Below are positions 29,737 through 32,277 of a stretch of DNA of 34,058 nt, one piece after another. The translations under genes and the position numbers were made by a program. The notes below the pieces were generated by a model that was not told the DNA's origin, did not search any database, and worked only from the letters and a program-made list of their open reading frames with translations. The stretch comes from Thermoproteus sp. CP80 (lineage in GTDB: Archaea > Thermoproteota > Thermoprotei > Thermoproteales > Thermoproteaceae), in the NCBI RefSeq assembly GCF_002077075.2, contig NZ_LCWM02000020.1, forward strand, positions 1 through 34,058, given 5' to 3'. Position 1 is the stretch's first letter. Each line of letters starts with the position of its first letter.

Positions 29737-30074
29737 CTCCTCACCACGAGGACGCCGTCTCTGTAGTCCACCACGACGACGGCCTCGCCCACCTCCGCTC
29801 GACAGCCCTCGCATAAAGCCTTCCAGTATACTCCTCCGATTTTCACCATGCCCTCAGGCCTAAGCTCCTCCACGACCACGGCCTTCTCCCCGAGGGGCGT
29901 GGTCGGTCTAGGCGGAGGGGGCTTAAATCTTATCCTCGTATATAGGGCCCAGACATATATCGCTATAAATACAGAGGCGGAGATCGCGCCGAGAGCCAAC
30001 GGTATTATGCCCAATACGCCGAGCACGATCAACAAGGCCGCCAGGGCCAGCAACAACGTCGCGGAATGCATCAT
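29721..30074 (-). CDS. NfeD-like membrane protein
   Basis: The 117-residue protein has two hydrophobic helices (LLLALAALLIVLGVLGII and ISASVFIAIYVWALYT, about residues 6-46), then a small beta-barrel domain: GEKAVVVEELRPEGMVKIGGVYWKALCEG split across 62-90, and EAVVVVDYRDGVLVVRR. This is the short NfeD layout, membrane helices followed by an OB-fold. NfeD proteins are often linked to SPFH proteins and membrane quality control, but no SPFH gene is here. The ATG overlaps the stop of the upstream gene (ATGA). Confidence 0.78.
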   Translation of the reverse strand: MMHSATLLLALAALLIVLGVLGIIPLALGAISASVFIAIYVWALYTRIRFKPPPPRPTTPLGEKAVVVEELRPEGMVKIGGVYWKALCEGCRAEVGEAVVVVDYRDGVLVVRRCSTQ

Positions 30075-30508
30075 GACAGCCTCTTTAGGGCGTAGCGAGT
30101 TATGAGCCAGGGGTCGTAGACGTCCTCTGGATAGAACGGCTCTCCGCGGGGCAACTCGGCTACTTCCTCAACGACTTCGCTCGGCTCCCCATATACAGCC
30201 ACGACGTACTCCCTGCTCCCTATGGGCGACGCAGCCGCGAGCGCCTCGTCTATGTCGTCGCTGTTGGTTAGGTACATCAGAACCGATATACGCCAATCTC
30301 GCGCCGGTTTTTTATACGTGTATGCGTAGGCCATGGCTTGGAGCAGATATCTCCAGTCCTTAACCGACTCGGGCCTCACGGCCACCACCAGCGCGCGGCG
30401 TCCGATCGAGGCGAGCATACCCTTGTCCAGCGGCCTATCCGACCTCACAATAAACGAGACGAAACAGGCATCCGGACCGCACCTCATGCCATACCTAGGA
30501 TCCATCAT
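30071..30508 (-). CDS. possible KEOPS Cgi121-like protein
   Basis: The 145-residue protein is not firmly recognised. Residues about 40-125 resemble Cgi121/TPRKB, the KEOPS subunit that binds tRNA for t6A synthesis: WRYLLQAMAYAYTYKKPARDW, then ISVLMYLTNSDDIDEALAAA, SPIGSREYVVAVYGEPSEVV. The order of helix A, EiLlyLsgsrqI-type segment and final strand fits that family. The start is either ATG 30508 or 30505; a TTG at 30520 is possible. An AT block (ctttaaaaat, 30551-30560) lies about 45 nt upstream. It leads an operon with NfeD and a methyltransferase. Confidence 0.5.
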   Translation of the reverse strand: MMDPRYGMRCGPDACFVSFIVRSDRPLDKGMLASIGRRALVVAVRPESVKDWRYLLQAMAYAYTYKKPARDWRISVLMYLTNSDDIDEALAAASPIGSREYVVAVYGEPSEVVEEVAELPRGEPFYPEDVYDPWLITRYALKRLS

Positions 30509-30610
30509 ACACCTCTTCAAACCTAGTCTTCACGGCTGGGCCAACTCTTGCTTTAAAAATAATTCAGCTAGAGGGCCAGCTCTATACAGGAGGGCTGCCG
30601 TGAGACCCCG

Positions 30611-30744
30611 CCAGAACTAAGAAGCCAGTTGCCTATGGGCGTAAGGGCTATGGAGGTTACGCAGATCTTTAGCCGTCGGGAAACGCCCGTGGGCCGTTCC
30701 CGGGGCCGAGGACGTCGATGGGGGCCAATGTCTTCTTAGGCTGG
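30611..30744 (+). ncRNA. candidate structured RNA or origin element upstream of cdc6
   Basis: The 339-nt gap before orc1/cdc6 has nested inverted repeats. The outer stem pairs CCAG-aa-CTAAGAAG (30611-30624) with CTTCTTAG-g-CTGG (30732-30744). Inside are GCGTAA/TTACGC (30639-30644 with 30657-30662) and CGGGAA/TTCCCG (30677-30682 with 30697-30702), the latter with an inner GCCC/GGGC. A TATA-like ctttaaaaat at 30551-30560 and a T-rich cttttaattt at 30787-30796 could bound a transcript of roughly 200 nt. It does not match the signatures I know for 5S, SRP RNA, RNase P RNA or box C/D and H/ACA RNAs. It could instead be Orc1/Cdc6 binding DNA. The strand is assumed. Confidence 0.35.
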
Positions 30745-30779
30745 ATCTATTCCATGCTTAGATGGCGACTACGGAGATC

Positions 30780-30859
30780 ATCAAAACTTTTAATTTAGTA
30801 GTTTCATTATGAGAGTAGTTGTCTGAAATTTTTATTAATCCCGGCAACAACACCAATTG
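30780..30859 (+). promoter_or_regulatory. AT-rich segment and TATA box before orc1/cdc6
   Basis: This 80-nt stretch is strongly A/T compared with its surroundings. tttttattaa (30829-30838) is at the leaderless distance from ATG 30860. An AT-rich tract next to an orc1/cdc6 gene is also a typical unwinding region of archaeal origins, but no clear origin recognition box was identified. Confidence 0.45.
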
Positions 30860-32017
30860 ATGAGGATCATAGTCAAGGGCGAGGCCTTCAGCCCCGACTT
30901 CATACCGCCGAGCCTGCCGCATAGAGAGGAGCAGCTGAGGCAACTATCTGCATATATGCGCAATTTCCTTGACAGGCCCGGCTCCTTCTACCCCAGAGCG
31001 GTCTTAGTGGGCAGACAGGGGAGCGGCAAGACCGTAACATTGAGGTCTTTTGGAGGCTCGGTGAGACCGCCCGTCAAGTTCGCCTACGTTTCTTGTTTTA
31101 TCAACAGGACCTTCACGGCGATAGTGAGCAGTCTAGCGCAGCAGCTAGGCATAGTGGTGCCCAAGAGGGGGCTCAGCAGAGATGAGCTGGTTAATGTATT
31201 CCTGGAGCAGATGAGGGACAAGGATCTGTTCGCCGTGGTGGCGCTCGACGATGTGTTCAACTTGACGCCGGACGCCATCTCGATCTTCATCAGAATGGGC
31301 CTCGAGACCGATAGGCTGGGCACGCACAGATTCGGGCTGATCCTAGTCAGCCACACGCCCGACTTCATAGACGCATTGGATCCCTCGACCCGCGGGATCT
31401 TGGGCAAACCCATAGTGAGGTTCCCGCCGTACACAAGGGACCAGGTCTTCGATATATTGAGGCAGAGGGCCGAGATAGCTCTCGCGTCGGGGTCGTACGA
31501 CGAGGAGATCCTGAACATGATAGCGGATATAACAGGCGCCGAGGACGGGGCGGAGGACAGAGGCGACGCCAGAGTCGCGCTCGACATACTCTATAGAGCT
31601 GCCAACAACGCCGAGAACGACGGCGTGAGCAGAATAACGCCTGAACACGTCAGAAGGGCCAGCAAGGAGGTGCTAGTGGGAGTCTCGTCGGACATCTTGA
31701 GGGGCCTCCCACTACACGCGAAGCTGCTGCTACTGGCAATAGTGAGGGCGTTGAGGAGTGGAAGGCCCTACGTCATCTTCGGCGAGGTGGAGGAGATGTA
31801 TAGAATGATATGCGAGGAGTTCGGACAAAAGCCCAGGACGCACAGCCAGCTCTGGGCCTATCTCGGCGAGCTGAAAAACAAGGGCATAATCGAGACGCGG
31901 CTCAATAAGAAGGGGGAGGGACTGCGCGGCAGAACCACGCTTATCTCGATAGGCACGGAGCCGTTAGACGCGCTGGAGAAAGCCATCACGTCCATGGCCG
32001 TCGAGGAGCTACGGTGA
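30860..32017 (+). CDS. cdc6: Orc1/Cdc6 replication initiator
   Basis: The 385-residue AAA+ protein binds origins and helps load the MCM helicase. Walker A is GRQGSGKT (residues 51-58), Walker B FAVVALDDVF (125-134), sensor 1 lies near LILVSHTPDF (160-169), and sensor 2 in DARVALDILYRAANNA. A C-terminal winged helix follows (about 285-375, HAKLLLLAIVRAL and QLWAYLGELKNKGIIETRL). Walker B reads DD where Orc1/Cdc6 usually has DE, and the usual SN sensor-1 pair reads SH, so ATP hydrolysis may be weak. The ATG was chosen by TATA spacing. An HTH gene follows with overlap. Confidence 0.92.
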   Translation: MRIIVKGEAFSPDFIPPSLPHREEQLRQLSAYMRNFLDRPGSFYPRAVLVGRQGSGKTVTLRSFGGSVRPPVKFAYVSCFINRTFTAIVSSLAQQLGIVVPKRGLSRDELVNVFLEQMRDKDLFAVVALDDVFNLTPDAISIFIRMGLETDRLGTHRFGLILVSHTPDFIDALDPSTRGILGKPIVRFPPYTRDQVFDILRQRAEIALASGSYDEEILNMIADITGAEDGAEDRGDARVALDILYRAANNAENDGVSRITPEHVRRASKEVLVGVSSDILRGLPLHAKLLLLAIVRALRSGRPYVIFGEVEEMYRMICEEFGQKPRTHSQLWAYLGELKNKGIIETRLNKKGEGLRGRTTLISIGTEPLDALEKAITSMAVEELR

Positions 32018-32277
32018 TGGATGTGGACTTCGTGCTGGGGGCTAGATCGCGCATAAGGATAATCCGGGAGCTATATAGAGCGTCCGAGTTGAATACGACG
32101 GATCTAGCCAGGAGGCTGGGCATAAACTACAGCCTGCTGGAGGAACACCTAGAGATACTCAAGGAGGCGGGCATCGTCGAGGAGCACCGAATAGGGCGCA
32201 TCAGACTGGTCTCTCTGAGGAGGGAGCCGGAGATTCTACAGCTAGCTAAGATACTAACAGAATTAGCCGCTAAATAA
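32017..32277 (+). CDS. small winged-HTH protein (ArsR-like)
   Basis: The 86-residue protein is almost entirely a winged helix: SRIRIIRELYRASELNTTDLARRLGINYSLLEEHLEILKEAGIV split across about residues 11-54 is an ArsR-type HTH, followed by a wing (EEHRIGRIRLVSL) and a short C-terminal helix. No metal-binding cysteines are present. The ATG overlaps the cdc6 stop (TGATG), so it is cotranslated with the initiator and may regulate it. Its last 15 nt overlap the opposite-strand rfcL gene. Confidence 0.8.
   Translation: MDVDFVLGARSRIRIIRELYRASELNTTDLARRLGINYSLLEEHLEILKEAGIVEEHRIGRIRLVSLRREPEILQLAKILTELAAK

Follow-up and report, generated by a model that had tools for sequence, protein, structure and literature searches.

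Two imperfect dyads of about 31 bp, D1 and D2, precede the orc1/cdc6 gene in the window, i.e., the whole 34,058-nucleotide stretch of Thermoproteus sp. CP80 DNA analyzed here, and probably constitute a tandem autoregulatory operator of orc1 within a replication and repair regulon of the Thermoproteales. The arrangement itself, in which tandem dyads, one of them over the TATA element, stand before an operon with two winged-helix proteins, is what an autoregulated operator looks like, and since this dyad also precedes many other genes, transcriptional control is the first function to consider. A description of this regulon or its motif was not found in open-licence PMC papers, as far as their titles and the beginnings of their abstracts extend.

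Genomic setting and the nested inverted repeats

The window is contig 68 of a Thermoproteus genome (G000) that is 77% complete. A preliminary description had drawn attention to positions 30541-30859, between a minus-strand gene and the plus-strand orc1/cdc6 gene, because of nested inverted repeats, for which a structured RNA of ~200 nt or an origin region read by the adjacent initiator was suggested. The features of the region and its flanking genes are:

30071..30520, minus strand: divergent 149-aa gene with a TTG start at 30520; weak likeness to KEOPS Cgi121 (NF011465)
30551..30565, minus strand: TATA-like box, placed with respect to the TTG start of the divergent gene; a similar box is present in genome G005
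30566..30771, no strand: segment with the nested repeats, specific to the window's genome; no function found
30772..30802, no strand: D1 dyad, ~31 bp, imperfect, with the core AAAACTTTT; its centre at 30787 lies 73 bp 5' of the orc1 ATG
30814..30844, no strand: D2 dyad, ~31 bp, imperfect, centre at 30829, 42 bp from D1, over the orc1 BRE/TATA
30822..30838, plus strand: BRE/TATA-like putative orc1 promoter TCTGAAATTTTTATTAA; TATA end 21 bp before the ATG; kept in 6/6 Thermoproteus genomes
30860..32017, plus strand: orc1/cdc6, 385 aa, ATG at 30860; Pfam Cdc6_C and Cdc6_lid, NCBIfam ORC1-type replication protein, PDB 1fnn
32014..32277, plus strand: 87-aa ArsR-like wHTH gene overlapping the orc1 3' end; Pfam HTH_5, HTH_metalloreg below cut-off

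Orc1/Cdc6 has a single match in the G000 genome, and the PDB ranking of the window's protein begins with 1fnn, followed by A. pernix 2v1u and S. solfataricus Cdc6-1. The ArsR-like wHTH gene is found behind orc1 in all 30 Thermoproteales orc1 loci (L008-L037); a wHTH-orc1 pair also occurs in six loci outside this order (L051-L053 and L055-L057; Thermoprotei, Thermoproteota or Sulfolobales). The divergent gene matches NF011465 with an E-value of 1.2e-4 and 22.1 bits, below the cut-off of 40, and a Pfam search assigned it to no family. Given its promoter distance from the minus-strand TTG, the TATA-like box at 30551-30565 probably belongs to the divergent gene and not to a plus-strand RNA, and in G005 the corresponding box is placed likewise relative to this gene. 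From the start of the divergent gene to D1, the distance is 46-47 bp in G001-G003, 189 bp in G005 and, counted from the TTG, 267 bp in the window.

The nested repeats, an outer stem enclosing inner stems, are present in the letters as first described, and no coding frame explains the segment that contains them. The outer stem of 12 pairs is interrupted and joins CTAAGAAG with CTTCTTAG (30617-30624 with 30732-30739) and CCAG with CTGG (30611-30614 with 30741-30744). As a special feature, however, the repeats do not stand out, since their frequency in dinucleotide-preserving shuffles of 30541-30859 is at chance level: among 300 shuffles, 129 contain a perfect stem of the real length (8 bp) or longer, 154 reach or exceed the real ungapped stem score, and 255 equal or surpass the real number of stems with 6 or more bp.

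The proposal that the repeats encode an unrecognized structured RNA of ~200 nt could draw on the TATA-like box upstream and the T-runs downstream of them. Both ends of this bracket exist, but the box fits the divergent gene, and the T-runs are those of the orc1 promoter and of D1/D2. Folded as RNA, 30585-30765 reaches -66.2 kcal/mol, while the shuffles average -67.2 (z 0.23); 115 of 200 shuffles equal or beat this energy, and in the MFE structure the centre of the outer stem (30618-30630) is single-stranded. A search of the whole window against Rfam, type T RNase P RNA included, returned nothing at the gathering score and only sub-threshold matches at E<=10, and the tRNA/tmRNA search returned none. 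Type T RNase P RNA (RF02357) resembles the flagged segment in being ~200 nt long and in occurring in Thermoproteaceae, but the segment has no covariance-model match, and the copy of this genome lies elsewhere (G000:C16:57157-57364, 194.8 bits). Moreover, the alignment upstream of orc1 shows that the segment is missing from 4/6 Thermoproteus genomes. G005 carries another insert in its place; a blastn comparison of the two yields a single 34-bp match (79%), a 10-mer close to the left edge and, apart from these, 7-mers only. Among 80 other genomes of the class the only counterpart is a 24-bp match in G021, which is taken to be a chance match. A structured RNA is thus highly improbable, and the nested repeats are chance pairings within an insertion that separates the putative orc1 operator from the divergent gene.

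The paired dyad in front of orc1

What all six Thermoproteus genomes have in common in the alignment is the final ~90 bp before orc1 (the Orc1 proteins of G005 and the window are 92% identical). This stretch includes TCTGAAATTTTTATTAA, which is predicted to be the orc1 promoter, and the orc1 mRNA is probably leaderless. D1 can be aligned in 6/6 Thermoproteus genomes and also at the orc1 loci of Pyrobaculum and of Vulcanisaeta-type genomes. The sequence common to these three groups is a dyad that has AAASTTT in its middle, flanked by the outer arms RGRGTT/AACYCY. Its symmetry is clearest in the Vulcanisaeta-type loci, where 7-12 of 15 arm pairs match, and weaker in Thermoproteus; in the window and in G005, the left arm of D1 deviates from the consensus.

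A symmetric PWM was trained on 26 orc1 loci (30 minus three with short upstream sequence and one near-duplicate), with D1 included in the training set and D2 left out. Scanning the 34-kb window with this PWM places D1 first (22.1) and D2 second (18.2), while the third-best position scores 5.6. When D2 was sought 30-55 bp from D1, with free spacing inside this range, a score of at least 10 was reached in 22/26 orc1 loci, and the D1-D2 distance was 42 or 43 bp in 25/26, i.e., about four helical turns. Scores of this height occurred in 20 of 5200 shuffled upstream windows and in 6 of 5200 windows inside or after orc1.

The following mechanism is conceivable: a dimeric winged-helix protein would bind the dyads, and at the D1-D2 pair, with its spacing of about four helical turns, binding would be cooperative. 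The protein bound at D2 would shut out TBP/TFB, which would place orc1 under self-control. The identity of the binder is a matter of inference here, as is the sign of its effect (repression or activation).

The same dyad upstream of other genes

With one mismatch allowed, a 22-bp dyad pattern has 143 matches in the 45 genomes of the order, compared to 25 for the reversed pattern. A search with a model trained on the orc1 sites of the order gave a best E-value of 0.05 or below in 36/45 of these genomes, versus 2/17 in a comparison set composed of 16 genomes of the class beyond the order plus G020. In the comparison set, no genome has a best E-value below 0.036, and 6/17 genomes have no match at E<=1. 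At E<=5, matches are found in 44/45 genomes of the order, a tally that is weak alone because several chance matches per genome are expected and because the orc1 sites trained the model. The dyads are mostly missing in genomes beyond the two families. Among the 45, G020 alone has two full-length Orc1 matches, and G020 alone is without a dyad match, which is a single case.

From the matches listed by the pattern and model searches, 110 loci were examined, some of them overlapping; the locus counts from these searches are lower bounds. Gene names follow the Pfam and NCBIfam matches of those members that were tested, while the labels for ribonucleotide reductase (RNR), membrane and zinc-finger proteins come from reading the sequences. 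A TFIIB-like gene has the dyad upstream in at least 17 loci, at a distance of 100-102 bp in 9/10 Vulcanisaeta-type genomes and of 40-73 bp in 6/7 Pyrobaculum genomes; at the Pyrobaculum loci, rpoG is divergent and lies 52-67 bp away. In Thermoproteus and Pyrobaculum genomes with a called start, the dyad stands 44-52 bp upstream of a TGT-like gene. It is also found at csa3 (at least 6 loci) and csa1 (at least 5), at a membrane protein gene with a divergent small Cys-rich protein, at RNR and at NurA.

In gene-based tests, orthologues were picked first and sites second, so that the genes were not chosen by their sites. For NurA, 26 of the 30 loci listed have their top match in the searched range of -160 to -15 between -61 and -71; 25 of the 30 score at least 10 and 11 at least 15, and NurA of G004 is without a dyad. 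Among the 30 TGT-like loci listed, 18 score 15 or higher and the remaining 12 below 4. For RNR, 11 of the 13 Thermoproteus and Pyrobaculum loci listed have their top match between -49 and -55, four of these 11 scoring under 10, and the dyad of the window's own genome scores 15.7; the site was not found in G007, in G016 or in the other 17 RNR loci listed. Across 192 ORF upstream regions from the 60 NurA and TGT-like loci, 35 score at least 15, and all 35 belong to TGT-like genes, NurA, HerA (G002 and G003) or genes divergent from these. The site thus recurs more often than the background, and at a fixed distance from given orthologues across several species, as expected of a regulon. At these target promoters, a single dyad just upstream of the BRE might act as a switch under replication stress or DNA damage.

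Further sites were observed along the way. Between csa3 and csa1, the dyad occurs as the variant GTTARCACRAASTTTT (L161, L165, L168, L254, L259, L284), to which Csa3 itself might bind. In at least nine Vulcanisaeta-type loci, the dyad lies 59-75 bp upstream of the gene for a zinc-finger-like protein of ~99 aa that belongs to no assigned family (L218, L229, L234, L238, L247, L271, L274, L276, L277). In P. oguniense, a dyad with a PWM score of 25.6 lies near small helix-turn-helix-like genes (L223) on the second contig of 16887 bp (G014:C2), which is perhaps an extrachromosomal element.

Candidate binders, a possible origin function and known systems

Orc1/Cdc6 itself may well be the protein that binds the dyads, although this assignment is put forward with some reserve. 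The ArsR-like wHTH protein encoded with orc1 is a more doubtful candidate, in which case the dyads would be operators of this protein and not of Orc1; some other factor would be a further candidate. The ArsR fold class is known for dimers that bind imperfect palindromes, and the constant position of the gene behind orc1 would fit such a role; on the other hand, where the gene pair occurs outside the Thermoproteales (L051-L053, L055-L057), orc1 is not preceded by a strong PWM dyad.

A different function would follow if D1-D2 were an origin element, the ORB of the Thermoproteales, with Orc1 bound to the dyads and loading MCM onto the AT-rich block; the remaining sites would be further origins or titration sites. 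The paired dyads adjoin the initiator gene, and the GC content of 30772-30845 is 31%. In P. calidifontis, four origins have been mapped and one Orc1 match is found. Pelve is said to have described, in 2012, binding of Orc1 to a repeat named "Orb-1" at one origin. In five genomes (G009, G011, G013, G021, G023), orc1 is located no more than 600 bases from the beginning of contig 1, probably because the depositors regarded it as the origin. ORBs have a dyad core. According to excerpts of PMC4010727 and PMC4164010, archaeal ORBs are likewise dyad-like sites that occur repeatedly in AT-rich DNA next to the gene of the initiator. However, the Thermoproteales dyads deviate from the ORB consensus TCCA..GAAAC..GGGGT, as given in the excerpt of PMC4164010: compared by eye, D1 and D2 contain neither TCCA nor a G-string. 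Moreover, the dyads are located in promoters of many non-replicator genes, at fixed distances from the start codons of unrelated genes, as is typical of operators. Excerpts on T. tenax place the GC-skew minimum far from cdc6 and call the origin "uncertain," and no Thermoproteales ORB class is mentioned in the excerpt on Ori-Finder 2 (PMC4164010). The fixed promoter positions argue that an origin role, which would be compatible with an operator, is not the sole role of D1-D2, and we consider the origin reading unlikely. For the AT-rich stretch 30772-30844, but not for the nested repeats, the early idea that the neighbouring initiator reads this region may be partly right.

Beyond the Sulfolobales, little is known of how archaea regulate their initiator, dNTP synthesis and end resection. 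The likely tandem operator of orc1 would offer a defined and testable regulon in the Thermoproteales, for whose origins sequence markers are lacking, and candidate binders and probe sequences can now be named. Poorly annotated genes for small zinc-finger, membrane and TGT-like proteins are thereby placed in a replication and repair context.

Palindromic operators that are common to repair and replication genes and to the regulator's own gene are known from the bacterial LexA/SOS regulon and from DnaA autoregulation. The layout in the Thermoproteales is alike, but no LexA or DnaA homologue is involved. Closer at hand is the DNA-damage-responsive Orc1-2/TFB3 network of Sulfolobus with its DDRE motif, ANTTTC (PMC9738581, PMC10470591, PMC6934391). 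As far as excerpts of these papers go, Orc1-2 binds ANTTTC in its own promoter and in those of other damage-response genes and activates tfb3, the DDRE is asymmetric, and nurA and herA show no UV induction. Both systems have an Orc1-family gene with the motif in its own promoter and a TFB paralogue as target, the latter represented in the Thermoproteales by the TFIIB-like gene, and the Thermoproteales core GAAASTTTC holds ANTTTC in both orientations. The exact hexamer, however, is contained in only 17/26 D1 cores and 15/26 D2 cores; in the window, it is missing from the D1 core CAAAACTTTTAA and present in the D2 core (GAAATT on the plus strand). The oligonucleotide with the Sulfolobus ucm motif, in the excerpt of PMC12141716, was also considered and is, by eye, unlike the D1 core. 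In contrast to the asymmetric hexamer of the DDRE, the Thermoproteales site is a dyad of ~31 bp, its targets take in nurA, RNR and csa genes, and the single Orc1 is closer to initiators, judging from its PDB matches. Still, the many cores with the hexamer and the TFB paralogue among the targets make for a close parallel between the two systems. It is a speculative idea, which we would not call likely, that the single Orc1/Cdc6 of the Thermoproteales is both initiator and master regulator, and that the damage regulator Orc1-2 of Sulfolobus is a specialized copy of this older double role. If true, its binding to D1-D2 and the other dyads by Orc1/Cdc6 would couple origin firing to the expression of orc1, dNTP synthesis, end resection by NurA (in some species also HerA), the TFB paralogue and the CRISPR adaptation genes.
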